Positions 43,824 to 58,395 of a stretch of 64,000 nucleotides of DNA are shown one piece after another. Source of the stretch: a virus; the IMG/VR virus record IMGVR_UViG_3300032053_000004, positions 62,001 through 126,000 of that record; one strand, written 5' to 3'. The notes under the pieces are model-generated. The model worked only from the letters and a program-made list of their open reading frames with translations. It did not search any database and was not told the DNA's origin. The stretch's first letter is position 1, and each line of letters begins with the position of its first letter. The position numbers were made by a program, and so were the translations under genes.

Positions 43824-44708
43824 ATGTTCGGCGTTCAAGCAGTTGATAACTCCGTTAAGGAGTCAGTCGTTGACAAATTCATTGGTAGCCCGTCAGGACG
43901 TAAGCGTCTTGCGGCTTCCATGGTCCAGCCGCTCCGTGAGCGGAGGGACTACTCGTCCGTTGGCCGTAAGACCTTTTTGGTTGAACAGCTTCCGGATGGC
44001 GCTCTCCCGATTTACGATAAGGACCCCGATGTGGTCGCTTACGTGATCGGTGAGGAAGGCGAGTCGATCACCGCCGTGGCTAAGCCACGCCGTGTGATTT
44101 TCCCGCTTTTCGAGATCGCGGCCCTCCCCAAGGCCCCACTTACGCAGGTTAAGGAGCGTCGCTACGACCTTCTCAAGCGTATGCAGGATCTTGGTAAGGC
44201 TCAGATCCAGGCCGCAGAAGACGATCGAGTTTTCTCGATTCTCGATGCGATCGCGGTTAACGGATTCGACTCGCTTCCGGGCGGGACGAACCCGGATATC
44301 CCGGTTGTGGCTCCGCTCTCGCCGGCCGTCCTCGCGGACGCGTACGCCGAGATCGAGCGTCACGATCTCCGGGTGGCCCGCGTTTACCTGAACGCTACGG
44401 ATTATGCTGATATCCGTAAGTTCGGTCGCGACGTCCTGGACATTGAGTCCCAGGCGTCCCTCTGGAAGACCGGTATGATGGCAACTGGGTGGAACGCCCA
44501 GTTCATCGTGTCGCGTCTCGTTCCCGCAGGTGTCGTGTATTGTTGCTGCGAGCCCGAGAACTTCGGTCGAATCCCGGTCCGTACGGAGCTTACGGTTCTC
44601 TCGGCGGACAATCCCGAAGACCGGACAATCGGATTCTCGATGTTTGAGAACCTTGGGATTGGAGCATTCAATCCCCGCGGTCTCGTTCGTCTGATCATCA
44701 CCCGCTGA
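43824..44708 (+). CDS. Major capsid protein (HK97-fold type)
   Basis: 294 residues behind AAGGAG. It has the layout of a phage major capsid protein: 'RDYSSVGRKTFLVEQLPDGA' (E-loop region), 'RVIFPLFEIAALPKAPL', a spine-helix-like segment 'DLLKRMQDLGKAQIQAAEDD', a domain with 'DLRVARVYLNATDYADIRK' and the C-terminal 'GFSMFENLGIGAFNPRGLVR'. It is the most GC-rich, codon-biased gene of the window and is followed by strong hairpins. No N-terminal propeptide of the usual size is present, so scaffolding is supplied by another protein. Confidence 0.8.
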   Translation: MFGVQAVDNSVKESVVDKFIGSPSGRKRLAASMVQPLRERRDYSSVGRKTFLVEQLPDGALPIYDKDPDVVAYVIGEEGESITAVAKPRRVIFPLFEIAALPKAPLTQVKERRYDLLKRMQDLGKAQIQAAEDDRVFSILDAIAVNGFDSLPGGTNPDIPVVAPLSPAVLADAYAEIERHDLRVARVYLNATDYADIRKFGRDVLDIESQASLWKTGMMATGWNAQFIVSRLVPAGVVYCCCEPENFGRIPVRTELTVLSADNPEDRTIGFSMFENLGIGAFNPRGLVRLIITR

Positions 44709-44712
44709 AGAT

Positions 44713-44772
44713 GAGCCCGAAAGGGCTCTCTCAACTAAGCCCCGGCGGACTTTAGTTCACCGGGGCTTAGTT
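44713..44772 (+). terminator. Double hairpin terminator after the capsid gene
   Basis: GAGCCC-GAAA-GGGCTC (44713-44728, a GNRA tetraloop) is followed by a 13-pair stem: 44733-44745 (AACTAAGCCCCGG) with 44760-44772. The downstream bases are T-rich (GTATTTTATATT). This is the strongest terminator-like structure in the window and would insulate the capsid transcript. Confidence 0.8.
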
Positions 44773-44812
44773 GTATTTTATATTAAATGGAATGTGATTA
44801 TATTATAAATAT

Positions 44813-44840
44813 AGATCCTGGTCCGACCGAACCAGGATCT
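44813..44840 (+). terminator. Additional strong hairpin downstream of capsid
   Basis: AGATCCTGGT (44813-44822) pairs with ACCAGGATCT (44831-44840) around an eight-base loop. Either a back-up terminator or a regulatory hairpin at the start of the next transcript; there is no T tract. Confidence 0.55.
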
Positions 44841-44903
44841 AATGGAGAAAAGAGAAATTTTATCATAAATAGATGCACATTAAAGGCAGCTTTTTTCTTT
44901 ATC

Positions 44904-45030
44904 ATGGAACAACAGTTAATCATGAGATGTCAACGACGACTCTAAAGAAGTAGTTATTTATATTAGAGGGAAAAAAGCCATACTTATTTCTGAAGAAGAG
45001 GCCAAAACTTTTGAAGTTCTCAGTGTATAG
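44904..45030 (+). pseudogene. Possible small frameshifted gene remnant
   Basis: The 328-base gap 44709-45036 holds the hairpins above and then this stretch. From ATG 44904 a frame opens 'MEQQLIMR' but stops at 44945. The +1 frame continues with a plausible peptide 'SKEVVIYIRGKKAILISEEE' to a stop at 45030, yet has no start codon of its own. It looks like a small gene broken by a frameshift, or chance. Confidence 0.25.
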
Positions 45031-45036
45031 TGTAGT

Positions 45037-45348
45037 ATGAGATCGATTTTAATTGAAGATGGTGATATATTTATAATTCTTAAAAAACGGAAGGAATCTA
45101 TGGTTCCTACCATTAAAATTGAAAATGAGTCAGGACTCTTAGGGATGATCTCCAAGTTTTCTTTTGAGATTTCTGCAGATAAATTTGTTCCTAAGATTGA
45201 GGTTGATGTTTGTTCAGATCTCACAGAAGAAGCTTGGAAAAATCTGTCTGAGTCTTCTAAAGAAGTTATATTCAAGACGGTCGGTGCCTTCTTCAATTTT
45301 ACCGGGGTAAAGATTTTGTCTCCGAACTACAAAGAAGAAATTAAATGA
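45037..45348 (+). CDS. Hypothetical protein, 103 aa
   Basis: Mixed alpha/beta protein with no recognised motif. It overlaps the next gene by four bases (ATGA). First gene of a block of unknown genes behind the capsid terminators; the position (head completion or connector area) is the only functional hint. Confidence 0.65.
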   Translation: MRSILIEDGDIFIILKKRKESMVPTIKIENESGLLGMISKFSFEISADKFVPKIEVDVCSDLTEEAWKNLSESSKEVIFKTVGAFFNFTGVKILSPNYKEEIK

Positions 45349-45899
45349 AATTAAAAAGTTTTTCCGGACTGACCCGTAGAAGTGCATATGAGAAATATGA
45401 GTCAGACCAAAGTTTAGCAACGGAAGAAATTCCCACTCCTGAAGATTTGTCTGAAGAACAAAAAGATATATATCGTCAAATATATGCATCGTCAAATAAT
45501 CGGAACTTAGGATTCACAGAATCCATGGCAGATGTTATTTCTCGAAGTCCTGAATTATATAAACAATTTCTGGAAAAACATCGACATTTTACCATTAATA
45601 CCATCGGGTGCTTATTAGCCAACAATCCGAATCTTCAATCTCTTTCCCATGATGTTTTGATACAAGTTCTCTCCCTCCCTGGGGATGAGATCAGTTCTAT
45701 TTCTCAAATTTCTCACTGTTTACAGAGTTCTAATTACAAATTAACCCGAGAAGATGTCCCGGAACTTTTAGACATTGCTCATACAACAGAAGTTATAGGT
45801 AAAGAAACCATCATAGATGATTTGGAAAATCCCCAAGCATCGCAAGCATCAAACCCTGGATATTCTTCTCAACCTTTCCCAATGCAACCTCTTCGTTAA
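45345..45899 (+). CDS. Hypothetical helical protein, 184 aa
   Basis: Predominantly helical ('SMADVISRSPELYKQFLEKH', 'NPNLQSLSHDVLIQVLSL') with a disordered Pro/Ser/Gln tail. Translationally coupled to the preceding gene. No family recognised. Confidence 0.65.
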   Translation: MKLKSFSGLTRRSAYEKYESDQSLATEEIPTPEDLSEEQKDIYRQIYASSNNRNLGFTESMADVISRSPELYKQFLEKHRHFTINTIGCLLANNPNLQSLSHDVLIQVLSLPGDEISSISQISHCLQSSNYKLTREDVPELLDIAHTTEVIGKETIIDDLENPQASQASNPGYSSQPFPMQPLR

Positions 45900-45922
45900 C
45901 TCTTTCATGCTGTTTTAAATAT

Positions 45923-47092
45923 GTGAACTTTTTTGACATCGCTCGAAAAATATTTTCAGCCGATCCCGAGAAGAAAAAGGGGCCGGGACCGGCAGCCGCA
46001 AAAACTCTTCTTAAAGAATTAATATCAGATCATTTAGACAAATTGGAGGAAGAACATCTGAAATCATCGGATGTTGAACCTCGGACTATTTCTCAACTCG
46101 AGCTCAATTTTCTTCTTAAAAAAATTAGAACTTCTCCTTATTACAGCATACTTTTTAAAGGTGATGACGAAAGATCTCATAAATTTGTTCAGGAATTTTT
46201 ATATGATTTAAATAAAGAAGACTTAAGGAAATCAAGGAAAAATAAAGAAAACTCAAGGAAAAAGGATCAGTGGATCATGGATTATTCAAGAGATCCGATT
46301 AAGCGTGCAAACGTTGCTTCTCTCATAAAACAGATCGCTTTTAAAATATCAAGCGATAGAACTCTTTCGAATTCTGTTCGAGATGCTTTCGTTTTTGACG
46401 CTGCCCAGGTAGTACCCGGGGAGCTTTCTAATGGCTTGTATGACACAAATCCTGCAGGAAAAGGATTTGACGTTCATGGTAAAAAAGGATTCGTATCTTT
46501 TGCTATAAAAGCAGACTCTTTTTCATCAAACTATTTAATAGGAGGGATTCTATTTAAATTAGAATATGACTCTAGCTTATATAAATCAGAATCTGATGAC
46601 TCTGGAAAATATCCCACTGGGCTCAAACATTCAAAGGGTTTGCAGACTGTCACATTTAGTACAAAAGCTGGATACTATAATAAACTTTTAGAAGGTGGTT
46701 ATTCTTCTCCTAAAGATTTAGGTGGATATATAATTGATCTTGATGATCAAGAAAATATAATCGATTCAATTATTGTTGATCCAGCTAAGTTTAAAGCTGG
46801 TGTTAATGGAATAGTAAATGATGTTCTTTCAAATCCTCCTCCCAGCTCTCAGTCTACTAAATATAAAGGTGTTGTTTTAAAAAAACAACAACAACAAATA
46901 GCACCGACAACTAGTGCAAGAGCACTCTTGCAGTGGATTGTAGGTCAAAAACAAACTGAAGTATTTGGTAGTCAAATAAATAATCTTGCTCAAGCTTTAT
47001 CTGCAGGGTCTGGATCTTCATTTGCAACAGAACACCAAAAAGTAACTGACTATTTCAAAAATCGTAATTGGGTGATAAATCATAATAAATGA
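45923..47092 (+). CDS. Hypothetical protein, 389 aa, two-domain
   Basis: GTG start with N-terminus 'FFDIARKIFSADPEKKKGPG', then a helical charged part and 'VASLIKQIAFKIS'. From ~160 a beta-rich domain ('FDVHGKKGFVSFAIKADSFS', 'YLIGGILFKLEYDS', 'GGYIIDLDDQENII') follows, and a Gln-rich linker leads to a helical C-terminus. Overlaps the next gene by four bases. Probably a virion component; family unknown. Confidence 0.7.
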   Translation: MNFFDIARKIFSADPEKKKGPGPAAAKTLLKELISDHLDKLEEEHLKSSDVEPRTISQLELNFLLKKIRTSPYYSILFKGDDERSHKFVQEFLYDLNKEDLRKSRKNKENSRKKDQWIMDYSRDPIKRANVASLIKQIAFKISSDRTLSNSVRDAFVFDAAQVVPGELSNGLYDTNPAGKGFDVHGKKGFVSFAIKADSFSSNYLIGGILFKLEYDSSLYKSESDDSGKYPTGLKHSKGLQTVTFSTKAGYYNKLLEGGYSSPKDLGGYIIDLDDQENIIDSIIVDPAKFKAGVNGIVNDVLSNPPPSSQSTKYKGVVLKKQQQQIAPTTSARALLQWIVGQKQTEVFGSQINNLAQALSAGSGSSFATEHQKVTDYFKNRNWVINHNK

Positions 47093-47355
47093 AAAATTAT
47101 TATGCGAAAGATGAGGGTTTGAATTGGGAAATGTCTCAGGCTTTGGCTGAGACATTTCTTAACGGTGCTAAGAAACTTCAGAATGCTGCAAAGCAAGAAG
47201 ATTCTCAAAAATTTTTGAGGATACTTATTATAATTTTTCAAGATTCTATTGATTTGTTTGAGCAAATGGGACTTAGTGGTGCTTCTTCTTCTATGAAGAC
47301 AGTTTTGAATAAACTTAAATCGGACAAAAGGGAAATATTAACTAAAGCTAAATAA
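47089..47355 (+). CDS. Hypothetical helical protein, 88 aa
   Basis: Small, wholly helical protein ('MSQALAETFLNGAKKLQNAA') starting in the stop of the previous gene. No recognised family. Confidence 0.6.
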   Translation: MKNYYAKDEGLNWEMSQALAETFLNGAKKLQNAAKQEDSQKFLRILIIIFQDSIDLFEQMGLSGASSSMKTVLNKLKSDKREILTKAK

Positions 47356-47369
47356 CTGTAATTTTTCGT

Positions 47370-47591
47370 ATGAAAAATGGAGATTATTTTCGTGTAATAA
47401 ACGAAAAATCTAAATATTTTAATTATTATGGAAAAATAATTCGTTCAGGCCCTCCGGGGCAAGCTAAATGTTTAGTTCAAAATAGAAATATGGATTTGAG
47501 TGACGATATAGGAGGTATGGTTAATTTTGATTTATCGGAACTTATCATAGCAAATGATGAAGTTGAAACTTATAAGCTCTTAAATAGTTAA
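47370..47591 (+). CDS. Hypothetical protein, 73 aa
   Basis: Small beta-rich protein ('GDYFRVINEKSKYFNYYGKI', then 'PGQAKCLVQ') that could be an SH3/KOW-like barrel. It ends head-to-head (four-base overlap) with the last gene of the minus-strand cassette and so marks the boundary of the head block. Confidence 0.6.
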   Translation: MKNGDYFRVINEKSKYFNYYGKIIRSGPPGQAKCLVQNRNMDLSDDIGGMVNFDLSELIIANDEVETYKLLNS

Positions 47592-47782
47592 TTAAGTTCT
47601 TCGGAGCCTTCAAATAATTCTTTTTCAGCTAAAAGCTCAACTTTATACCCATCAGCGGTGAATTCTGAAATTACCCAGTCCATTTTTGAAACATAATCAG
47701 GGATACTATCTATGTCTAGAATACGTTCTTGAATACGTTCTTTTCCTTCTTTCTTTATTCTGAGAGTTATTAAAATCTTCAC
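47588..47782 (-). CDS. Hypothetical protein, 64 aa
   Basis: Last gene of the six-gene minus-strand cassette. Short alpha/beta protein ('KILITLRIKKEGKERIQERI'). Nothing recognised. A hairpin separates it from the preceding minus-strand gene. Confidence 0.55.
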   Translation of the reverse strand: MKILITLRIKKEGKERIQERILDIDSIPDYVSKMDWVISEFTADGYKVELLAEKELFEGSEELN

Positions 47783-47796
47783 CCGGTACTTTACTG

Positions 47797-47820
47797 TCTT
47801 TCGGTTTTTAAACCGAAAGA
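47797..47820 (-). terminator. Hairpin between two minus-strand genes
   Basis: TCTTTCGGTTT (47797-47807) and AAACCGAAAGA (47810-47820) pair over 11 bases; the inner pairs probably open to form the loop. The stop codon of the 47808-48152 gene is inside it. No U tract on the minus-strand transcript, so it may attenuate or stabilise instead of terminate. Confidence 0.5.
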
Positions 47821-48152
47821 AGAGCCATCGTCGTTTCTTCGTCGGAGGCTCGTCGGAGCTTTTCTAAAATAACTTCTTCTGGACCATAAAAAAAGAATAC
47901 TTCTCGTCCAAATTTATGATAAAATATTTCTCGTCCTTCTGCCTTTTCTTGAAAATTCACGCCTCTTAAGAAAATATTGTAAGGGCTGCTCGTATCAGAT
48001 TCTTTTCTATATTTGTTGGCCCTGTCAGATAAAGTTGAGTCTGACAGTTTATATAATAATCTTTCCCCTATACTCTCGTCCGTAACATTTTTCCCAGCTA
48101 TGGAAGTTAGTCTTCGGAATTCTTTATCTATTGATTTCGACTGCTTTACCAT
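47808..48152 (-). CDS. Hypothetical protein, 114 aa
   Basis: Basic/acidic mixed protein with an aromatic stretch 'EIFYHKFGREVFFFYGPEEV'. No motif recognised. Part of the minus-strand cassette around the glycosyltransferase. Confidence 0.6.
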   Translation of the reverse strand: MVKQSKSIDKEFRRLTSIAGKNVTDESIGERLLYKLSDSTLSDRANKYRKESDTSSPYNIFLRGVNFQEKAEGREIFYHKFGREVFFFYGPEEVILEKLRRASDEETTMALLSV

Positions 48153-48190
48153 ATACTAATATACAATTTTCGATCTCTCATTTACAAAGA

Positions 48191-48514
48191 CTAAGAGTCA
48201 ACGACTTCTTCGCATAAAGCTTCATTCATCATTTTCTCAATTTCTTCTTTTTCCATTCCCGATTTAATTGCTGCTTTCATTGCTTCATTAAGGGCAAATT
48301 TTGGATTAATAAAATTTCCGAAATTTGTATTTCCAATAGTTATATGTTGCCCTCCAGGCATTCCATTATATGGGATAGTTTGTTGACCCATCGGATCTAT
48401 TATCCAAGTTCCGTTCATATTCGGATATATAGCGGTATCCCCAATAGTAATCGTTGTTTGAGAAATATTTGTTGATGTTTGAGGAATATACAAGTTGTGA
48501 TCACCTAATGACAT
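48191..48514 (-). CDS. Hypothetical protein, 107 aa
   Basis: Starts behind GGAGG on the minus strand. The N-terminal two-thirds are rich in Asn, Thr, Gly and Ile with repeated 'TIT/ITIG(N/D)T' strands ('TTITIGDTAIYPN', 'HITIGNTNFGN'), suggesting a small beta structure; the C-terminus is an acidic helix with 'EEIEKMMNEALCEE'. Located 18 bases downstream of the glycosyltransferase gene and probably co-transcribed with it. Confidence 0.65.
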   Translation of the reverse strand: MSLGDHNLYIPQTSTNISQTTITIGDTAIYPNMNGTWIIDPMGQQTIPYNGMPGGQHITIGNTNFGNFINPKFALNEAMKAAIKSGMEKEEIEKMMNEALCEEVVDS

Positions 48515-48532
48515 GTTGGCCTCCGTAAAACT

Positions 48533-50488
48533 TTACTTTTCTTGAGCAAATCCTCCTAGTGGGGTGACTTGCTCTTCGTCATTTATCTCGTATGGGGATA
48601 TGTCTCTTGATGGAATGAAGTCATCATCTTCAGACCCTTTCCCATTTACTCCAGGTTTTCCATAAACAGGCTGCTCTTTTTTCCCCTTAATTAATTCTTC
48701 TTCGGTTATCCAGCCTCGATTTCCCATAACATCCATATTCATTCTTAAAAATAGCATTCTGTCTTGCGATAACTCAGATCCTTCCACAAATTTAACAGAT
48801 TTCGGGTTCGGGAGAATAGACGCTAAAAACATTGATTGGCTGAGACTTAGTTGATAAGGCTCTTTCTTAAAATAATAATAGGATGCTGGTCCTATTCCGT
48901 ATAAATTCGGACCATATTCGATTATGTTTAGATAGGTTTCTATAATTTGGTCTTTAGATAAAGACTGTTCAAGCCATTTGGCTAAAACAAGCTCTTGTAA
49001 TTTTCTCGCGATGTTTTTATTTCTATCTAGCCAAAGATTTTTGGCTAATTGCATTGTTATAGTGCTTCCTCCTCGTATAAATTTCCCGAACACTAAATTA
49101 TCTCTTAAAGAACCTTCTAAGGCTTGAAATATGATCCCGCCATGCTTTCGAAACCCCGGATCTTCGAATAATCGAACTCCTAATTCTACATATGGAGACA
49201 TTTCGGATATTGGAGTCCAGTCAGATGTCCCTGGACCTACAATAACTTCTTTCGGTTTCCCGTCTGAAGAGTATATCTTATGCTTAAATGTCTTTCTAAA
49301 TCTTTTCGTATCAAGTTCTTCTGGAACTTTTGTTATACTGCAGTCTATTTTTTGTTGAATCCAAGCGTCTGATTTGCTTAATCTTCCAAAATTCTTGTAA
49401 TCATATAATATTTTTATTTTTCCTTTTATTTTTCCATCAGATTCAATCCCTTTAATTTTTTCGTTCATTCCATCGGGAATTGAGTCTAGCAAATTTTGAC
49501 AAGGAGTTTCGGGTAAATCAATTTCGAAAAGAATTAAATATTTATCCTTGCTGAAAGATATCGGTGTTTTAATTTTCATGAATTCTAACATATTATCTGT
49601 GTGTAATATTGTTCCATCTAAACTTATATGCCCTGTTGTTTCTATTTTAAATTTTGGTATATCTATGGTCTCTTTGGATAAAACCCTATGGTTTATCTTG
49701 ATCGGACCAATTTCCGCATTTGTTTTGAATTCTATTTTTTCTCCTTCATCTAATTTTAAAAATATGTTAGAATCTATAGATGTACATTCTAAATCCACAA
49801 GTTTGGGAGGATTTTCTTTTGAACATTCTTTCAATAGTTTAAAAGAGATCCCAGACTCATTCGGATTTATTGATATTTTTGCTGGTCCATAAGAATTTAT
49901 GGAGAAAGATTCAATTTCTGTTTTGAATTTAGATACTTTTTCATAAATTCTAAAAAGTTTTTCTAAATTTCTCGGTTCTTCTGATTTTTCTTTTTTCTTA
50001 GTTTTTATTGATAACTCTTTGGAATTTATAGATTTTATTTGTTTTTGATTCAATTCTATTTTTGTATTTTTTGAATTTATAACGAAAGACTCATTCTCAA
50101 ATAAAATTCTTTCCATATCTATGAATATTTGTTCTCCAATTTTCTTTATATTCCGAACATTAGTTATGAATTTTCCTCTCTTATCAGTATAAATAACCTC
50201 TCCTGCTCCTGTCTCTATATTTTGACTTGTAAAATTAATCTTTAATAGTTTGAATTTAGCGTTATTTTTATTTTTATCAAATACTTGAACATCTGATATT
50301 TTCACTTCATGCAGAGACGGCCAAGCCCACCCCATCTTTACTTCTAAATCAAATTCTTGAGCTTTTGCTTTAATTTTTGTATGAGCAAAAGAATTAAACC
50401 AAATTAAAGCGATTGATATTATTATGAATAGGAATATTGAAAACTTGATCAGTTTTTTCACATGAGAAAGTACATCACGAAGCTGCAA
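48533..50488 (-). CDS. Membrane-anchored GT51 peptidoglycan glycosyltransferase with AsmA-like N-terminal region
   Basis: 651 residues. A single transmembrane helix at ~14-31 is followed by a ~370-residue beta-rich region resembling AsmA/translocation-type repeats ('LHEVKISDVQVFDKNKN', many alternating short strands). The catalytic domain (~430-600) is GT51: 'LFEDPGFRKHGG' with the catalytic Glu, 'GGSTITMQLAKNLWL', 'ARKLQELVLAKWLEQ' and 'IETYLNIIEYGPNLYGI'. GT51 polymerises lipid II into glycan strands. No transpeptidase domain. Bacterial relatives with this long N-terminus occur, from memory, in deltaproteobacteria-like lineages. It could have been taken from a host. Confidence 0.85.
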   Translation of the reverse strand: MQLRDVLSHVKKLIKFSIFLFIIISIALIWFNSFAHTKIKAKAQEFDLEVKMGWAWPSLHEVKISDVQVFDKNKNNAKFKLLKINFTSQNIETGAGEVIYTDKRGKFITNVRNIKKIGEQIFIDMERILFENESFVINSKNTKIELNQKQIKSINSKELSIKTKKKEKSEEPRNLEKLFRIYEKVSKFKTEIESFSINSYGPAKISINPNESGISFKLLKECSKENPPKLVDLECTSIDSNIFLKLDEGEKIEFKTNAEIGPIKINHRVLSKETIDIPKFKIETTGHISLDGTILHTDNMLEFMKIKTPISFSKDKYLILFEIDLPETPCQNLLDSIPDGMNEKIKGIESDGKIKGKIKILYDYKNFGRLSKSDAWIQQKIDCSITKVPEELDTKRFRKTFKHKIYSSDGKPKEVIVGPGTSDWTPISEMSPYVELGVRLFEDPGFRKHGGIIFQALEGSLRDNLVFGKFIRGGSTITMQLAKNLWLDRNKNIARKLQELVLAKWLEQSLSKDQIIETYLNIIEYGPNLYGIGPASYYYFKKEPYQLSLSQSMFLASILPNPKSVKFVEGSELSQDRMLFLRMNMDVMGNRGWITEEELIKGKKEQPVYGKPGVNGKGSEDDDFIPSRDISPYEINDEEQVTPLGGFAQEK

Positions 50489-51026
50489 TTTTTGCTGCTA
50501 TGACCCGAATTTTTTCTTGAACTTCGTGGATTAAAGCAATTTTCTTTATAGAACCTGTTCTCCCCATATCGTTTATTATTTCTTTCGCAACTGATCCTAT
50601 CAGATCTGTTGTTATATACTTCTTTACGATTTTTTCAAGATATGGGTCATCTTCTTGTTCTGAAAAAGGTATTTCACTTGGTGGAACTGGTTTTGCTGCA
50701 AGTGCGTAATCGAGATCACCTTGCAGTTTTCTTACCATCAATTTTAAAGTAGAATCTTTTGGTCTAATAAAAATATCTTTAACTATTGAATTACTAATTT
50801 CGTCATCTAGTATTCTTTCCGCATCTTGACGAATTTTAACCGGGTCTTTTTGACTTTTTGCTGGCATACCTTGAGTTATATTTTGAAATATTAAATTGAC
50901 TAATGTTTCATTTAATGAATCTAAAGCGTCGTATATAGCTCCTTCTATTAATTTGGTTCCAAATTCTTTTTGAAGATAGTCTTGTAAATCGTGGCTGAGT
51001 GCAGCAATTCTTCCCATGAAAACCAC
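50475..51026 (-). CDS. Hypothetical helical protein, 183 aa
   Basis: Overlaps the glycosyltransferase start by 14 bases and is therefore probably co-translated with it. Mostly helical with an acidic middle. GTG 51026 or ATG 51017 could start it ('MGRIAALSHDLQDYLQKEFG'); neither has a good Shine-Dalgarno. No domain recognised; no signal peptide. Confidence 0.65.
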   Translation of the reverse strand: MVFMGRIAALSHDLQDYLQKEFGTKLIEGAIYDALDSLNETLVNLIFQNITQGMPAKSQKDPVKIRQDAERILDDEISNSIVKDIFIRPKDSTLKLMVRKLQGDLDYALAAKPVPPSEIPFSEQEDDPYLEKIVKKYITTDLIGSVAKEIINDMGRTGSIKKIALIHEVQEKIRVIAAKIAAS

Positions 51027-51040
51027 AATTTACAAGAATT

Positions 51041-51328
51041 TTATGCTTCAAGCATTTCTCTGGTCAGAAGAATTTCCTTTAGTGGAAACTCACTCTCCCA
51101 GTCTATACTTATCCTAGATCCATCCCAAATCATGGGGACTGAGATATCATCCGTAAGGAGACGCCCGGAGAACGATCTCAGGTATTCCATTGTCTCTATG
51201 AGATCGTCTGGACACTCTATAGATATTTCGTTTGAAGACGCGTCCGTTAGGAGAATATTATATATCCCATTGGAATGAGGTCCTTTCGGCTGCAGTCTAG
51301 TGATTTCGATTAATTTATAATTTTTCAT
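51041..51328 (-). CDS. Hypothetical protein, 95 aa
   Basis: First gene of the minus-strand cassette. Alpha/beta protein ('GIYNILLTDASSNEISIEC', 'ISIDWESEFPLKEIL'). Chosen over the open frame on the opposite strand because it continues the minus-strand operon with 14-base spacing. Confidence 0.6.
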   Translation of the reverse strand: MKNYKLIEITRLQPKGPHSNGIYNILLTDASSNEISIECPDDLIETMEYLRSFSGRLLTDDISVPMIWDGSRISIDWESEFPLKEILLTREMLEA

Positions 51329-51389
51329 AAAATATTTTACTCTTGAATAGATTTGATTTACATGGACTTTTGATAATCTTTTGTATCTG
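51329..51389. promoter_or_regulatory. Divergent intergenic region
   Basis: The 61 AT-rich bases between the minus-strand cassette and the + strand gene at 51390 must contain, or lie next to, promoters for both directions. I do not see a clear -10/-35 pair or inverted repeat. Confidence 0.3.
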
Positions 51390-51848
51390 ATGACACCCGA
51401 TCAAGTTGCCAAGGCTCTTCTCCAAATTGCTGATGGGATTGAGAAATCGAAGAAGCCTCAAGTTTCTTTGGTGGCTCAAGATATATCTAAAGTTATTTCT
51501 GAGATTAGCGCTTCCCCTATTCAGATAAGGAAAGCCGCTTGGAGGGTAAGTGGGCCCCCCGCTTCTTTCACTGTTCGTTCTTCTAAAAAATCTGCGGAAG
51601 AAACCTGTCGCAGAATAGCTGGCTTGATGATGCGTCTTGCAGAAGACGAGGAACTTGGTCCTTGGGATTTAGAAGAAGGCGAGCGAACTGAAGATAAATG
51701 GGAAGACGCTCGTAAAGAAACTTCAAACGAGGAAAAACTCGAGTCTAAGTTGAAATTTCTTAAGCGCCAAATAGATAAATTTATAAGTGCTATTAAGAGT
51801 GGTGAAGAACCTGAGGGAGAATCTGAAGTTTTTACTTCCGCTAAATAA
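51390..51848 (+). CDS. Hypothetical protein with recurrent N-terminal domain (copy 3)
   Basis: 152 residues from ATG 51390, chosen to match the starts at 6905 and 23010 ('MTPDQVAKALLQIADGIEKS', then 'VAQDISKVISEI'). The similarity is weaker than between the other two copies. Then come 'IRKAAWRVSG', 'TCRRIAGLMMRLAEDEEL' (an RLAE motif at 82-85) and an acidic/basic helical tail. Unknown function; possibly a virion protein processed at the RLAE site. Confidence 0.7.
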   Translation: MTPDQVAKALLQIADGIEKSKKPQVSLVAQDISKVISEISASPIQIRKAAWRVSGPPASFTVRSSKKSAEETCRRIAGLMMRLAEDEELGPWDLEEGERTEDKWEDARKETSNEEKLESKLKFLKRQIDKFISAIKSGEEPEGESEVFTSAK

Positions 51849-51921
51849 TATTTTAAAGCTTTTATAACCGACGTTCCATCATTACAGTACAATTTATCAG
51901 GCCAATAAGGAGGTCTGATAG

Positions 51922-52968
51922 ATGGAAGCTATTATTTGGAAACGTGGTGATTATCAAAAGTTTTACGCCAATATGAAAGTGCGTATTGGCGCTAATACTC
52001 ATAATCTTGTTGCTATTGAAGCTGGAGACGAACTTGAATATGATGGGACTATGCTCCGCTATGCTGGAGCAGAGGTTCCCCAACCTTCACTTCGTGGGGC
52101 GGTGAAGGCTGGATGGCTTTCTTCCGCTTCCGATCAACAAGGCGTCCATATAGCTACTACTAACCCAAGTAGGAACATAGCTAAAGCTCAAACAGTTAAT
52201 ACTGATCTTTCCCGAGTCCAGCGTGGAGTTCCGAGGGTTATGGAGACGGATTCTCTTGATGAAGAGACTGTTCTTCGAGTTGATGATCGCGGGCGTGATA
52301 ATGGGACTAGGCACGGGGACCGGAAAATTTTGACATCCTCGGATCGTCGTTCTGTTAGGGGCATGGAAGTACAAAATAGTGCTGATGATTCTCAAGATGG
52401 GGCCCCTGTTGGTCGTATCAGATCAGCGGCAAAAGCTTCTTTTGATGTTTCAAAAGATACTGCGTATAGCAATACGATGAGGAAGTTGAATGAGCCTGAT
52501 GCAATAGGTAAGGCTAAAATAAATAAAATTACTAGAGAAGGTGTTGAAATAACTACTAATGTCGGGAGAGTCGACCGAACAATTACGGAAGATATCGGAG
52601 ATGAAGGGGTAACCGTTGCCTCAGTCCGTCATACCTCTAGAGCATCAAGCGAAGGTATTGATATAGAGGATACTAGTGGAACTCATCGGAAAGCCGATAA
52701 GAAATCTCAAAAAGTAGAATCGTATAGAAATGAAACAACGGATCTGGTAATAAATACGAAAATCCCTGCAAGGGTTAGAATTGCTAGACACATAGACCCC
52801 AGTTTCCCGGCCAGTTGGCCCTTTGAAGGGAAAATGGCGGAGAGACTTGAACGTGTGAAGAACTATGACTCACTTTCTCCTCTTTTCCTCGAGGCTCTTT
52901 ATGCGGCCGAAGGCGATAATTTTAGGAAAGTTCTCCATACTGAATATTCAAAACAATTTCCTAAGTAA
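51922..52968 (+). CDS. Hypothetical structural-type protein, 348 aa
   Basis: Starts behind AAGGAGG. The N-terminal ~75 residues form a small beta domain ('VRIGANTHNLVAIEAGDELE', 'YDGTMLRYAGAEV'), followed by a long polar Arg/Asp-rich, probably disordered middle and a C-terminal helical part ('ARIARHIDPSFPASWPF'-like). It contains 'RSAAKAS' and 'VASVRHTSRASS', echoing the AS motifs of this phage. No enzyme signature. Confidence 0.7.
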   Translation: MEAIIWKRGDYQKFYANMKVRIGANTHNLVAIEAGDELEYDGTMLRYAGAEVPQPSLRGAVKAGWLSSASDQQGVHIATTNPSRNIAKAQTVNTDLSRVQRGVPRVMETDSLDEETVLRVDDRGRDNGTRHGDRKILTSSDRRSVRGMEVQNSADDSQDGAPVGRIRSAAKASFDVSKDTAYSNTMRKLNEPDAIGKAKINKITREGVEITTNVGRVDRTITEDIGDEGVTVASVRHTSRASSEGIDIEDTSGTHRKADKKSQKVESYRNETTDLVINTKIPARVRIARHIDPSFPASWPFEGKMAERLERVKNYDSLSPLFLEALYAAEGDNFRKVLHTEYSKQFPK

Positions 52969-52978
52969 ACCATTTATC

Positions 52979-52999
52979 GGCTCGTCTGAACGATGAGCC
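52979..52999 (+). promoter_or_regulatory. Hairpin overlapping a start codon
   Basis: GGCTCGTC (52979-52986) pairs with GATGAGCC (52992-52999), eight pairs including one G-U, five-base loop. The ATG at 52993 lies in the 3' arm and there is no Shine-Dalgarno. Confidence 0.45.
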
Positions 53000-53355
53000 A
53001 TAATAAAACTGCTGGCATAACGATATATATACAAGAGGAACTTTCCGACGCTCGTTTGCGTTGTGATGAACTCAAGTCTTATATTGTTAAAGCCATAAAT
53101 CTAATTCATTCTAGCGATAAGAAGGATCATATATATGCCGTAGCCGGAGATCTCGTTCATGCTGCTCCAGAAGCTTTGCTTAAACTGGAGAGAGCTCTCG
53201 AGGCTACGGCTATGGCTGTAAATAAAATGGATTATGAAGAGTTGCGCCAAATTCTTCGTCCCGAAAAAGTCGATGAACTTGAAAGAGTTTTAGATGATAT
53301 AAGAATAAATATACCCCGGAGAACTGGGGATAAAATGAAATTTAACGAGGATTGA
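52993..53355 (+). CDS. Hypothetical helical protein, 120 aa
   Basis: Helical throughout ('DARLRCDELKSYIVKAINLI', 'ALLKLERALEATAMAVNKMD') with no recognised domain. The overlapping endonuclease gene begins at its stop codon. Confidence 0.65.
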   Translation: MSHNKTAGITIYIQEELSDARLRCDELKSYIVKAINLIHSSDKKDHIYAVAGDLVHAAPEALLKLERALEATAMAVNKMDYEELRQILRPEKVDELERVLDDIRINIPRRTGDKMKFNED

Positions 53356-54782
53356 ACTTAGTGTATGTTTGTGGTGTGAACGAGAAAGGATTGGATAACA
53401 AATCAAAGATTAGTATTAACTGTATATGTGGAAAATTGTTTCTTATTTCGTTTAAACAGTTAAAACACAATAAGAAAATTAATAGATCAAATATTTGTAG
53501 AAGTTGTTCAATCAAAAAACTCTGGGAAAACCCTGATTATAGAATTAGGGTTAATGATTCTCTTAAATCGCTTGATAAAACACTGTTAAAACAAAAAATA
53601 TCTAAAAAATCCAAGTTAATGTGGGAAAATTCTGAATACAGGGAAAATCAAAAAAATATCCATACGAGTTCCGACTATATTAAAGAGACTTCTGAACGAT
53701 CAAAAAAACTATGGGACAATGATGATTTCAGAACAAATCAACTAAAGATAAGAAACGATCCGATTTGGATTGAAAAACAATCCAAATCTATGAAGAAACT
53801 ATGGGAAAACTCTGACTATCAAAATAGAGTTTCTAGTTCTTTATCAAAAGTTTTCATTAAGGGTTACAAGTCATCACTGGAAATAGTTACGCATAATATA
53901 CTTGAGTCCATGCATGTTCGTTTTGAAGAGCAAAAACCTTTAGGCCCTTATATTTTTGATTTTTTCTTACCAGAACATGATACTTTCATAGAATGTCAAG
54001 GTGAATACTGGCACTCAATCAAAAAGGCTTCGTCTAAAGACGCTTCTAAGTTTTCTTACTTTGAAAAATCTCGTCCTAATTCTAAAATTTTATATTTGCA
54101 TGAACGAGATTTTTTAAATCCGAAGATTGTAGAGAAAAAAATAGAAGAAATACTGAAAATTAAAATTAAAGTTGATATCGTTGATTTTTCTTTTTCTGAA
54201 GTAATACTGAAGGAGTTGGACCCTAAGATAAAGAATAAATCACACAATTCCTTACCGAAAGAATTTTTAGACTCATTCCATTATGCTCAGTTCGGTAGGT
54301 CATCCAAGGTAATATATGGAGCTTTTTTGAAAGAGAAATTAATTTCTGTTTGTAAATTTTCTACTCCTATAAGAAAAGAAGTTGCAACTTCTTTAAATTA
54401 TTCTTACTCGGAAGTTTTAGAACTCGATCGTTTTTGCATACATCCGGAGTATCAAAAGAAAAACTTCGCCTCTTGGTTTATTTCGAAGTGTATGAAAATG
54501 GTTTTTGAGAAATACTTAAAGATCAATCATTTAGTATCATTCGCTGATTCGACCTATGGACACTCCGGGGTCATATATAAAGCCGCAAATTGGAAAGAAA
54601 TTGGAAATACTAAGCCAGATTATCATTACATAAATGATGGCGGTTGGATATTGCATAAAAAAACTCTTTATAATCATGCGGTTAAAATGGGGAAAAATGA
54701 AAAAGGGTACTCATCAGAGTATGGATATAAGAAAGTATATGGAAAGTTAAAAACAAAATTTATATTTTCTCGGTTTAATTGA
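53352..54782 (+). CDS. EDxHD/Vsr-like homing endonuclease fused to a Mom-like GNAT domain
   Basis: 476 residues; TTG 53352 or a GTG at 53361 starts it. Order: four-Cys zinc finger (C24, C26, C49, C52); four NUMOD3-like units 'LWENPDYR', 'MWENSEYR', 'LWDNDDFR', 'LWENSDYQ' (57-160); a PD-(D/E)XK-type EDxHD nuclease (~173-255) with 'SSLE', 'IFDFFLPE' and 'FIECQGEYWH'; then a GNAT-type domain (~305-425) with 'HYAQFGRSSKVIYGAFL', 'LELDRFCIHPEYQKKNFASW' and 'LVSFADSTYGHSGVIYKAAN', the pattern of phage Mom-like acyltransferases. Likely a mobile endonuclease; the role of the second domain (DNA-base modification, self-protection) is inference. Confidence 0.8.
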   Translation: MNLVYVCGVNEKGLDNKSKISINCICGKLFLISFKQLKHNKKINRSNICRSCSIKKLWENPDYRIRVNDSLKSLDKTLLKQKISKKSKLMWENSEYRENQKNIHTSSDYIKETSERSKKLWDNDDFRTNQLKIRNDPIWIEKQSKSMKKLWENSDYQNRVSSSLSKVFIKGYKSSLEIVTHNILESMHVRFEEQKPLGPYIFDFFLPEHDTFIECQGEYWHSIKKASSKDASKFSYFEKSRPNSKILYLHERDFLNPKIVEKKIEEILKIKIKVDIVDFSFSEVILKELDPKIKNKSHNSLPKEFLDSFHYAQFGRSSKVIYGAFLKEKLISVCKFSTPIRKEVATSLNYSYSEVLELDRFCIHPEYQKKNFASWFISKCMKMVFEKYLKINHLVSFADSTYGHSGVIYKAANWKEIGNTKPDYHYINDGGWILHKKTLYNHAVKMGKNEKGYSSEYGYKKVYGKLKTKFIFSRFN

Positions 54783-54794
54783 GAATTTATTTAG

Positions 54795-55850
54795 ATGTCC
54801 AGTAATTCTCCTCGTGGTTTTATATTATCTGATGCGGCAATGTATGCGTTTGAGTGTCAAGAAGTATATCCTGATTTATTGAGTTTTGCTGTTGCAATTC
54901 CCGATCATTTAAAACAGTTATTTTTAGTCCCAGTTACGGTTGAACCGATGTCGATTGCATCGGTGGCTTCTCGTGTTGCATTTGATGATAGTGGGGCCGG
55001 ATATGAAACAGATTCGGCTGATTTGTTTGGGACCAAAACTTTTGTTGTTGAAAATGATCCGGAGCCAACCGTAACGGATTCCGACCCCGGATCTATGTTT
55101 GATATTGATGGATATTGGGGAAAGACCCATCAAGATGATGGGACGGACGAAAATTGGCAAGTCCCGTCAGACACAAGTTACATGTCTGACATTGATATCA
55201 CCAATTATTGGTCTTACCCTTATAGATCTGAAGAAAAACCTCGTCATTCTTCATTACGGCAAGTAGCATTCTTCAAATTGTCTCTTAAACCTGAGAGGCT
55301 AATTACTGAAGTCCCGAAGAAAATCAAAGAAAATGCGGAAGTTTGTTCTGTTAGTTTAGTATCATATGATAAGCGTGGTCGGATTTTTTCTTTTAAAGTT
55401 GATTGCGGGAATAAACCGAAAAATGTCCGAGCTTCTTTAACTAGTTTAAATGAAGTTGCTATGACTTGTTCTTGTCCGTTCTGGAGATGGAACGGACCCG
55501 AATTTAATGCTAAATCAAATAAATTTTTGCTAGGAAAACCTAACGGAAAGGCTTCTCCTCCGAATGTTCGTGATCCTGATCGGGAGTTTTGGCTCTGTAA
55601 GCATACTTTTGCTGTTTTAAAACGTTTAGACACTTTCGTCCAACAGATAGTTGATGAAAACTGGGGTTTGGACGATGATGATCTTCTTAGAGAAATAGAC
55701 GAAGAATGGGATAGATTAATTGCAGTTTCTGAAGAGACTTCAGAAGAACTAGAAGAAGAAAACCCAGAGATAGAAGTTAAAATTGAGGAGGAGGAACCAG
55801 AGGAGGAACCCGAGGTTGAGGAGGAACCTGAGGAGGAATTGAAAAAGTAA
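54795..55850 (+). CDS. Structural-type protein with SWIM zinc finger
   Basis: 351 residues. 'MSIASVASRVAFDDSG' near residue 50-66 carries the ASRVA motif. A domain at ~160-290 has 'FSFKVDCGNKPKNVRASL', 'AMTCSCPFW' and 'FWLCKHTFAVLKRL': the C-x-C...C-x-H of a SWIM zinc finger. The tail is Glu/Pro repeats. SWIM fingers bind nucleic acid or protein. Location among virion genes suggests a particle or ejected protein. Confidence 0.7.
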   Translation: MSSNSPRGFILSDAAMYAFECQEVYPDLLSFAVAIPDHLKQLFLVPVTVEPMSIASVASRVAFDDSGAGYETDSADLFGTKTFVVENDPEPTVTDSDPGSMFDIDGYWGKTHQDDGTDENWQVPSDTSYMSDIDITNYWSYPYRSEEKPRHSSLRQVAFFKLSLKPERLITEVPKKIKENAEVCSVSLVSYDKRGRIFSFKVDCGNKPKNVRASLTSLNEVAMTCSCPFWRWNGPEFNAKSNKFLLGKPNGKASPPNVRDPDREFWLCKHTFAVLKRLDTFVQQIVDENWGLDDDDLLREIDEEWDRLIAVSEETSEELEEENPEIEVKIEEEEPEEEPEVEEEPEEELKK

Positions 55851-55869
55851 AGTATTCTAAGAGGTCATT

Positions 55870-56265
55870 GTGCAATACGATTACGCTTGTTCAAAATGCA
55901 AAAACGTCCAAGAAGAAAGTTGTTCTGTAAAGGATTTTAAGGATTTCCATCCTAAATGTAATAAATGTAAATCTTCATGTAATTATCAATTTAATCCATC
56001 TGGCATACAATTTGTTTTAAAAGATGGGCCGTCCGGATCTTGGCCATCTAAAGGTAATAGGATTAAAGGACAAATGAATAAAAAGAACGATCAAATGATC
56101 CGTCGCCAACGGGATCGTTATGGTGAGGGTCAAAAAGCTATACCAAATTTTGAAGGTAAAGAAACTGAGTCTTGGAGAGAGGCTAAAAATATAGCCATGA
56201 AGGAACGCGGGGCTCAATCCGCGGCCACTTACGATAAAATCATCAAAAAAGACAAGAGAGTTTGA
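55870..56265 (+). CDS. FmdB-like zinc-ribbon protein
   Basis: 131 residues, GTG start in TTGTGC behind AAGAGG. 'YDYACSKCKNVQEESC' and 'HPKCNKCKSSCNYQFNPSGI' match the FmdB/CxxC regulatory zinc-ribbon layout, including the F-x-P-S-G-I/F end. The C-terminal half is basic. FmdB-like ribbons are frequent in phage structural modules; exact role unknown. Confidence 0.75.
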   Translation: MQYDYACSKCKNVQEESCSVKDFKDFHPKCNKCKSSCNYQFNPSGIQFVLKDGPSGSWPSKGNRIKGQMNKKNDQMIRRQRDRYGEGQKAIPNFEGKETESWREAKNIAMKERGAQSAATYDKIIKKDKRV

Positions 56266-56290
56266 TTTTTAATATCCTGTTTTATCCGAG

Positions 56291-56932
56291 ATGGCTAGAA
56301 TTTTTAGTGTTTACAGGCGTAAAAATAAGTTAGTTGACTTGAATTGGCCTTATCGGCCGGGTGTTGCTAGCTATCGAATGAAATTTGCTGGTAATTTTGA
56401 CGGGGTATTTGCTTTATTTGAGACCGTTTCCTTAAATGGAAAACAATCTTTAACCGTCCTAAATAACGGTTATACTGATAATCAATTTCGTGGTAAAACG
56501 AGATTTTTATTTAATCCAGATGATTATACAGCTTCTGGGTTGGATGATACCAAACCAATGTATATAAAGTTAGCCCCGGTAGATTTTGCTGGAGTCATCG
56601 GGGCTGACGAGGCCATGCAGTTAATTCTTCCATACAGCCCGGAGCCGAATCGAGCTTTGGTTTTGAATGGAAATGCTCCTACTCCAGGCCCTCTTGAAAT
56701 TCAACTCCCAATGCTTGTCCATAATATGATATTTACAAATTTAGACCCTGCCAACGTACTTAACGTTTCTTTTGAACCGACCGGTCCTGTATATGAAATT
56801 GGACCTTTGGCTACTACTAGTTCCATATATCCTTCAATATATCCTAACGCTAGTCAATTATTCATATCTGGAGCAGGTGGGGTCGTACCCATTAACGTTC
56901 TAGCATCGATCAGAAATAACCCAACCACTTGA
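56291..56932 (+). CDS. Hypothetical virion protein, 213 aa
   Basis: Beta-rich, Pro/Asn-rich protein ('YRMKFAGNFDGVFALFETVS', 'PMYIKLAPVDFAG', 'GAGGVVPINVLASI'), similar in composition to head decoration or tail-surface proteins. First of three consecutive genes of this type ending at a strong terminator. Confidence 0.65.
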   Translation: MARIFSVYRRKNKLVDLNWPYRPGVASYRMKFAGNFDGVFALFETVSLNGKQSLTVLNNGYTDNQFRGKTRFLFNPDDYTASGLDDTKPMYIKLAPVDFAGVIGADEAMQLILPYSPEPNRALVLNGNAPTPGPLEIQLPMLVHNMIFTNLDPANVLNVSFEPTGPVYEIGPLATTSSIYPSIYPNASQLFISGAGGVVPINVLASIRNNPTT

Positions 56933-56969
56933 TTCGATTTTTATTACACAGTTACATCAGGAGATAGCG

Positions 56970-57521
56970 ATGTCGATCACCCTCTTTAGAGTCACGAATC
57001 AACAAACTTTAAACCGATCTATATTGATAGATAAGTGTGATGATGGTCAGTCTAACTCCCCTGGGTATGCTCAGAGGGCGAAGCAGAGGGTGTATATTCC
57101 TTATGTTAATCCCCTAAATACTGCCGTTAAAGGTTATACGGATTTCGTTCCTTCTGATCGAGTCCTTCTTTCAGCAAATAATGGAACTATTGCCGGTTTA
57201 ACTACTGCTGGTCGGGTTTCTTTGGCCGTATTTGCCTCTTCTTTGATTGCAACCCCAGTAATAACTGGAGACGCTCTCGCCGGCGCAAGTACAACTGTAA
57301 CCGGTACGACTTTCGTCTCTCTCGCTCCTGATATAACTTATATAACCCTGACTAATCTTGTTGCAGTATCTCAAACTATTCCTCAGACAAGCTTTACAGT
57401 TCTTAATGCAACTACGATTACTTTCCTTGATGCCACATCGACTATTGGCGTCCCCGCAGCCGGATGGACAGCTAAAGTGTTTGCTAATTCGAAGTTTAGC
57501 AATACTTTCACTCTTGTGTAG
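56970..57521 (+). CDS. Hypothetical virion protein, 183 aa
   Basis: Good AGGAG site. Thr/Ser/Ala/Val-rich beta protein ('AGASTTVTGTTFVSLAPD') with few charges, typical of surface-exposed particle proteins. No family recognised. Confidence 0.65.
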   Translation: MSITLFRVTNQQTLNRSILIDKCDDGQSNSPGYAQRAKQRVYIPYVNPLNTAVKGYTDFVPSDRVLLSANNGTIAGLTTAGRVSLAVFASSLIATPVITGDALAGASTTVTGTTFVSLAPDITYITLTNLVAVSQTIPQTSFTVLNATTITFLDATSTIGVPAAGWTAKVFANSKFSNTFTLV

Positions 57522-57582
57522 TCCTTTATAGGATCGTCTGGGTGCCTTTAGAATCTAACCCCAAGGTAATGAGGTAAGGAAA

Positions 57583-58395
57583 ATGCGCGTAGGATTTGTT
57601 CGATCAGACATTAGTCATCTTTACTTGAACGACATTGAAAATCGCTCTCAACGAGCTTTTTCGATGGAACCGGCTGGGCAAAGCCGTTATTTCCATCAGC
57701 CGACAAGTGCAGAGATCACTACGACTCTGAACACGTACGCTTTCCTATCTGTTCTTGCAACAGATGTGGCGGCAACTGTCGATACGTCAGTTAACAATAC
57801 GCTTCGAATTCGGAAGCTTGCCGCTGACGCATTTTCGATCATTGCTGTTCCTGCCGGCGTTGCTACGGCTAAGACGGATATCCGAGATTCTTTGAATCTC
57901 TCCTTCATAAATCTCGGGCTTCCATTTGTGGCTTCGATTACTGCACCGAATAAATTGCAGATAGATACGGCCGGTACGAATGCTGGTCCGACTGCTCGTA
58001 TGGAGATTGATTCCGTTGCTAACGGATCAACTCTTAACACGGCAGTCGGGTTCCCGGTTGGCGTTACGATCGTTTCTGGTATTTCGGCTGCCACTTTGAT
58101 CGCCACCGTTTACCCAACGTCAGTCACGATCAACGTGAGTACTGCCGCTATTACGGCCCTTTCAACGTTCGTGTTGCTTAGCGCGACGAAGCAAACGAAT
58201 TTGGTGAATGGAATTGCGAACACGATAGCTCCGCAGCTTGTGGAGTCTGGTCCTGTTCTTCTTTCGTTCGTTTACGGTGTGATTTCGAAACTTCGCTCGG
58301 CTACTTTCCAGCCTGGTGGAACTCGTTCTGGACTTCCAGCTGGAATCGCAGCTGCCGTGGTTCAGAATGATGGCGTGACAGTATATACTGTTTAG
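57583..58395 (+). CDS. Probable abundant virion protein, 270 aa
   Basis: Behind GAGG/AAGG. Ala/Thr/Val/Ser-rich beta protein; G/C-ending codons like the capsid genes suggest high expression. A strong terminator follows. It might be a decoration, tail-tube-like or fibre component; no motif decides. The N-terminus 'RVGFVRSDISHLYLNDIENR' is the only distinctive part. Confidence 0.7.
   Translation: MRVGFVRSDISHLYLNDIENRSQRAFSMEPAGQSRYFHQPTSAEITTTLNTYAFLSVLATDVAATVDTSVNNTLRIRKLAADAFSIIAVPAGVATAKTDIRDSLNLSFINLGLPFVASITAPNKLQIDTAGTNAGPTARMEIDSVANGSTLNTAVGFPVGVTIVSGISAATLIATVYPTSVTINVSTAAITALSTFVLLSATKQTNLVNGIANTIAPQLVESGPVLLSFVYGVISKLRSATFQPGGTRSGLPAGIAAAVVQNDGVTVYTV

Follow-up and report, generated by a model that had tools for sequence, protein, structure and literature searches.

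Phages are known as destroyers of peptidoglycan, and their lytic transglycosylases and endolysins act on its glycan strands. These enzymes cut the strands, whereas the phage GT51 family described here is predicted to polymerise lipid II. Several described systems share parts of its architecture. The class A penicillin-binding proteins (PBP1a, PBP1b and PBP2) carry a GT51 domain of the same fold, but the phage protein differs from them in having no transpeptidase domain. The monofunctional enzymes MtgA and MGT resemble the phage protein in the single anchor, the absence of a transpeptidase domain and the structure match, but MtgA lacks the region of about 380 residues that precedes the GT domain in the phage protein. 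The AsmA-like proteins TamB and YdbH share the N-terminal anchor and the beta-groove, whereas the phage protein is far shorter and fused to GT51. The AsmA-type GT51 proteins of Myxococcota (Polyangium, Sorangium and Minicystis, about 800 aa) have the same order of anchor, AsmA-like region, two-cysteine linker and GT51, with Met in motif II; the phage proteins differ in their length (mostly 530-660 aa), in their shorter AsmA-like region and in their location in phage genomes. In the literature searched, a phage GT51 synthase was nowhere described. Main-text term searches of papers on huge and jumbo phages (PMC7162821, PMC7824862, PMC13282480 and PMC13037316) gave no mention of one, and the same was observed for PMC12619734, PMC12607003 and PMC11924767. 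The BFVD fold search showed no phage protein of the anchor/AsmA-like/GT51 architecture among the best 50 matches, and in PHROGs only the unnamed family phrog_33002 matches the GT part. What is new here is that about 35 IMG/VR contigs encode this three-part protein and that nearly all of those placed fall in one phage clade of myxobacterial ancestry.

The window (the whole stretch of 64,000 nucleotides that was analysed) belongs to a virus record of 202,143 bp which contains exactly one GT51 gene. This gene lies on the minus strand at 48533-50488 and encodes a putative lipid II polymerase of 651 aa having an anchor, an AsmA-like region, a two-cysteine linker and a GT51 domain. The open reading frame starts with TTG and overlaps the upstream frame by 14 nt. 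An alternative GTG start at codon 10 (50461), giving 642 aa and reading MKKLIKFSIFLFIIISIALIW..., is as plausible as the TTG and would yield MKKLIKF, a typical signal-anchor beginning. The hydrophobic N-terminal anchor (about aa 12-32; 50393-50455, minus strand) is seen in the sequence, and the structural model shows a helix at residues 3-45. As basic residues are followed by a hydrophobic helix at the start of the protein, its body should face the periplasm. The AsmA/TamB-like beta-groove region (about aa 46-329; 49502-50353, minus strand) was recognised from homologue profiles and the predicted structure. The linker cysteines C330 and C383 are kept without exception in the 51 members from phages and bacteria. 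The GT51 domain at aa 421-580 (48749-49228, minus strand) matched PF00912 (Transgly) with 152 bits against a Pfam cut-off of 27 (E 1.1e-44, profile positions 13-172 of 178); this was the sole Pfam family in the protein, and the transpeptidase domain PF00905 was absent in the Pfam search.

The catalytic glutamate positions of the domain are E442 and E499, and its motifs align with EDRNF and RKIKE of Aquifex. No variation was seen at E442, D443, H449, G451, GxST, Q480, K496 or E499 among the 51 phage and bacterial homologues, although these are only about 22-42% identical overall to the window protein. The position of Gln136 in S. aureus MGT (motif numbering as in PMC6053601) is occupied by Met in motif II throughout the family; as the bacterial members also carry it, it is not a phage lesion. 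The preliminary description of this DNA, made from the letters and their open reading frames, had proposed a phage-encoded GT51 protein with a membrane anchor and an AsmA-like region, which is borne out by profile, motifs and predicted fold, and had singled out the catalytic Glu as the residue to check; both glutamates are kept. The window gene is almost certainly a GT51 enzyme within a genuine phage, and its product is likely to be an active lipid II polymerase as judged from sequence and model.

The AlphaFold2 model of the window protein, for which 51 homologues from phages and myxobacteria were aligned, showed a mean pLDDT of 85.4 and a pTM of 0.76. In Foldseek the GT domain matched the glycosyltransferase of Aquifex aeolicus PBP1a (3nb6) with E 9e-11 and a target TM of 0.82; the matches to the GT51 fold (3nb6, 3d3h and 2oqo) ranged from 0.82 to 0.86 in target TM, and S. 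aureus MGT was also among the matches of the C-terminal domain. The beta-rich N-terminal part matched the lipid-bridge proteins LPD-3, Vps13, TamB and LptA, moderately and more weakly than the GT domain did. Sequence profiles gave 6e-54 for the GT domain against 2oqo and 9.3e-6 for the N-terminal region against TamB (9xdc). The window protein alone gave no AsmA-clan match in Pfam, while DUF748 was matched by 7 of the 51 homologues and YdbH-like by 2. The term AsmA-like is thus apt for the family in view of the TamB profile, the homologues matching DUF748 and YdbH-like, and the Foldseek matches.

The contigs encoding the same three-part protein are mostly 80-530 kb in length with one of 619 kb, and four further GT51 contigs were located through the capsid gene. 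Their GT51 proteins range from 530 to 730 aa. The families recognised in the window are the head protein, terminase, portal and head protease. Certain GT51 matches in phage databases look bacterial: mtgA of MaAM05, annotated as GT51 in a phage collection, adjoins glyS and gatD and is doubtful as a phage gene. MW462191, the other of the two annotated hits viewed in context, has fimbrial chaperone/usher genes near its penicillin-binding protein but a terminase and a portal too, and is also doubtful. For the family studied here, bacterial contamination or a chimeric assembly has a negligible probability. About 35 contigs with phage-type gene order carry the protein, the reading frames are free of stops, the proteins form their own phage clade, and a separately assembled contig (L002) has the same gene, 99.8% identical, with the same neighbours. 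The GC content of the GT51 gene tracks that of its flanks (r=0.96 over 30 phage contigs; 31% in the window gene against 39% in its flanks), which makes contamination very unlikely. The preliminary description had allowed for contaminating bacterial DNA; these data place the gene in phage genomes. In the one suitable pair (L017/L020) dN/dS was 0.16, with little difference between the AsmA-like and GT parts, revealing purifying selection on the GT51 gene; the gene is in use.

The major head protein (phrog_2522; 43824-44708, plus strand) served as the marker of the phage lineage. It is at least 87% identical to that of the window in the window-type GT51 phages, 72-77% in most other GT51 phages tested and about 30% in three contigs; five GT51 contigs had no head-protein match and are possibly fragments. 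Judged by this protein, the closest named records are LR745208 (485 kb) at 75% identity, Tunturiibacter phage Tunturi_5 at 45% and Bacillus phage G at 37%; none of them has a GT51, and the latter two are the most familiar relatives of the lineage in culture. The GT51 slot lies between the head gene and a 348-aa gene at 51922-52968 (plus strand). In the lineage of the window GT51 usually stands head-to-head with a relative of the latter, as in at least seven phages (L003, L005, L006, L007, L009, L106 and L237), and this relative heads a conserved cassette of genes corresponding to those at 51922, 52993, 54795, 55870, 56291, 56970 and 57583; for L237 only the first cassette gene falls within the stretch examined. 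In the window two more minus-strand frames and one plus-strand frame lie between GT51 and 51922, and the remaining cassette (52993-58395, plus strand) is interrupted by 53352-54782. The interrupting plus-strand gene encodes a protein of 476 aa in which an HNH/homing-endonuclease-like part is fused to a Mom-like acetyltransferase part; its relatives occur at other sites in related phages (directly behind the capsid gene in L162, L194, L197 and L210, and in the L024 cassette), so it looks mobile. The cassette gene at 54795-55850 (plus strand) shows 52-62% identity between phages and a weak SWIM zinc-finger signal. Frames of about 500-540 aa upstream of GT51 in L007, L009 and L106 probably overlap the 51922-type gene in antisense and arose from choosing the longest frame. 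Further on, 61157-64000 (plus strand) encodes a collagen-repeat protein (PF01391, 416 bits) of more than 948 aa which continues past the window and is probably a tail fibre.

The stretch from the capsid gene to the conserved cassette (44708-51922) is variable, its cargo differing in nearly every related phage, and is a hot spot. Within it the GT51 gene is one of six minus-strand frames (47588-51328) amid the plus-strand head and tail region. Upstream of GT51 are a frame of 95 aa (51041-51328), the first of the block, which matched no family, and directly adjacent one of 183 aa (50475-51026), which matched no family and showed no relative in other phages. Downstream are frames of 107 aa (48191-48514), 114 aa (47808-48152; no family) and, at the end of the block, 64 aa (47588-47782; no family above threshold). 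Among the five, only the 107-aa frame has a relative near a GT51 gene elsewhere, a weak one in phage G011 (L238; 32%, E 5e-8). The preliminary description had presented the six genes as a minus-strand cassette; the six frames are present, but the block was rejected as a conserved unit, as only GT51 recurs widely in other phages. GT51 points the other way from the head and tail genes, which is in keeping with its being controlled separately. Promoter and terminator scans gave no more than chance, and the window holds no tRNAs.

Among phages of the same lineage, L177, L184, L197 and L199 have the capsid-to-cassette stretch without GT51. The gene is likewise missing from three long contigs, G012 of 393 kb, G016 of 308 kb and G013 of 193 kb, and was rejected as a core gene of the lineage. 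Some close relatives do without it; hence it is not needed by all. In L024 the GT51 in this stretch belongs to the other subclade and has the opposite orientation, which indicates a swap between phages. Over all phages compared, the distances of GT51 and terminase were correlated with a Mantel r of 0.67 (p=2e-4); the correlation was strong in the second group (0.84-0.91) and not significant within the window's group (r=0.22, p=0.09). The terminase loci of six related phages (G014, G022, G037, G041, G044 and G190; L256-L260 and L248) have open frames of about 1100-1600 aa which match the window terminase in separate pieces, probably owing to inteins. The history of GT51 in this large-phage lineage is apparently one main capture, then descent with persistence, losses and occasional swaps.

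The origin of the gene was analysed against 84,980 species genomes. The best 80 of the 377 cellular matches, which formed the cellular sampling of the tree, were Myxococcota or unranked Deltaproteobacteria MAGs, mostly Polyangiales, with one labelled merely 'uncultured bacterium'. In the careful tree, from which the very long-branched L115 was omitted, the phage proteins formed a single clade of 32 rows (bootstrap 100, SH-aLRT 97), whose sister group comprised 30 rows from myxobacteria, chiefly Polyangiales (100/99), and the AsmA-type GT51 family was separated from the canonical myxobacterial PBPs used as outgroup (99/99). A larger quick tree is in accordance with this result (34 phage rows, SH-aLRT 99); an initial quick tree that held fewer phage rows gave weaker support (85 without L115). 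All but one of the placed phage proteins fell in the single clade. The exception, L114 (IMGVR_UViG_3300022719_000283, 618,736 bp), has its GT51 outside this clade among myxobacterial sequences, probably as a second, independent capture. The phylogeny of the GT51 domain against bacterial homologues, which the preliminary description had called for, thus nests the phage clade within a Myxococcota family, indicating one main capture from a myxobacterium. The donor was very likely a myxobacterium, most likely one of the Polyangia. The earlier idea that the gene may point to the host lineage holds in respect of this donor; the myxobacterial nearest relatives suggest whom these phages infect or once infected, and a myxobacterium as the present host is plausible. 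A search for the capsid gene in 141 Myxococcota genomes, run without a positive control, gave no match.

The best explanation, with a probability of roughly 0.6, is that the locus encodes a lipid II polymerase anchored in the inner membrane, which a large-phage lineage acquired from a myxobacterium of the Polyangia type and has retained under selection as accessory cargo. The preliminary description had proposed that the enzyme may reinforce or remodel the host wall, block superinfection or support an oversized infected cell. The phage enzyme would polymerise host lipid II in the periplasm during infection. Neither a PBP-type transpeptidase (PF00905) nor a YkuD transpeptidase was found in any of 23 phage records; the product should therefore be glycan strands only, their cross-linking being left to host enzymes. 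Host transpeptidases would cross-link these strands, and the wall would be kept or repaired while a large burst is built, thereby avoiding premature lysis. The AsmA-like part would probably position the enzyme or handle lipid across the periplasm. Keeping or repairing the wall in a long infection is the simplest use that we infer for the enzyme, and upkeep as its role, taken separately, is tentative and somewhat short of an even chance.

The same lack of a transpeptidase could be read differently, as strands made without one depend on the host and their overproduction could be harmful to it. The lone GT51 may drain lipid II into uncross-linked strands, stopping host growth or aiding lysis, and a polymerase away from its host regulators may be uncoupled. 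This futile polymerisation is improbable. The cellular relatives are likewise without a transpeptidase on the same chain and look like housekeeping genes, with four GT51 proteins each in the Sorangium, Polyangium and Minicystis genomes and one of these of the AsmA type, so the arrangement is ancestral and not a phage weapon; phages, moreover, already have lysis enzymes. An altered or thicker wall that stops rival phages, or shields against their lysis enzymes, would agree with the sporadic occurrence, the variable cargo slot and the swaps, a pattern shown by conflict genes; this role is equally improbable, as GT51 brings no new wall chemistry for a rival to recognise. The lipid-bridge-like fold covers more than half of the chain, and lipid transport to the outer membrane could be the main function with GT51 as a passenger. 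Against this, conservation within the protein is highest in the GT51 part, where every catalytic position is kept, while the AsmA-like part of the phage proteins is shortened and divergent compared with the bacterial counterparts, which renders such a role highly unlikely.

Returning to wall upkeep, a selected, phage-specific clade of peptidoglycan synthases inverts the picture of phages as wall destroyers. Through the clade, Myxococcota can be proposed as hosts of a lineage of huge phages that is almost solely metagenomic and has Tunturi_5 and phage G as relatives, and its GT51 is a marker gene for finding more phages of this lineage. A further-reaching and rather speculative proposal is that huge myxobacterial phages take over wall synthesis, their own host-independent polymerase keeping or reshaping the wall when the host machinery is shut down. 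If this is true, wall building, and not just cutting, would be part of the lytic programme.
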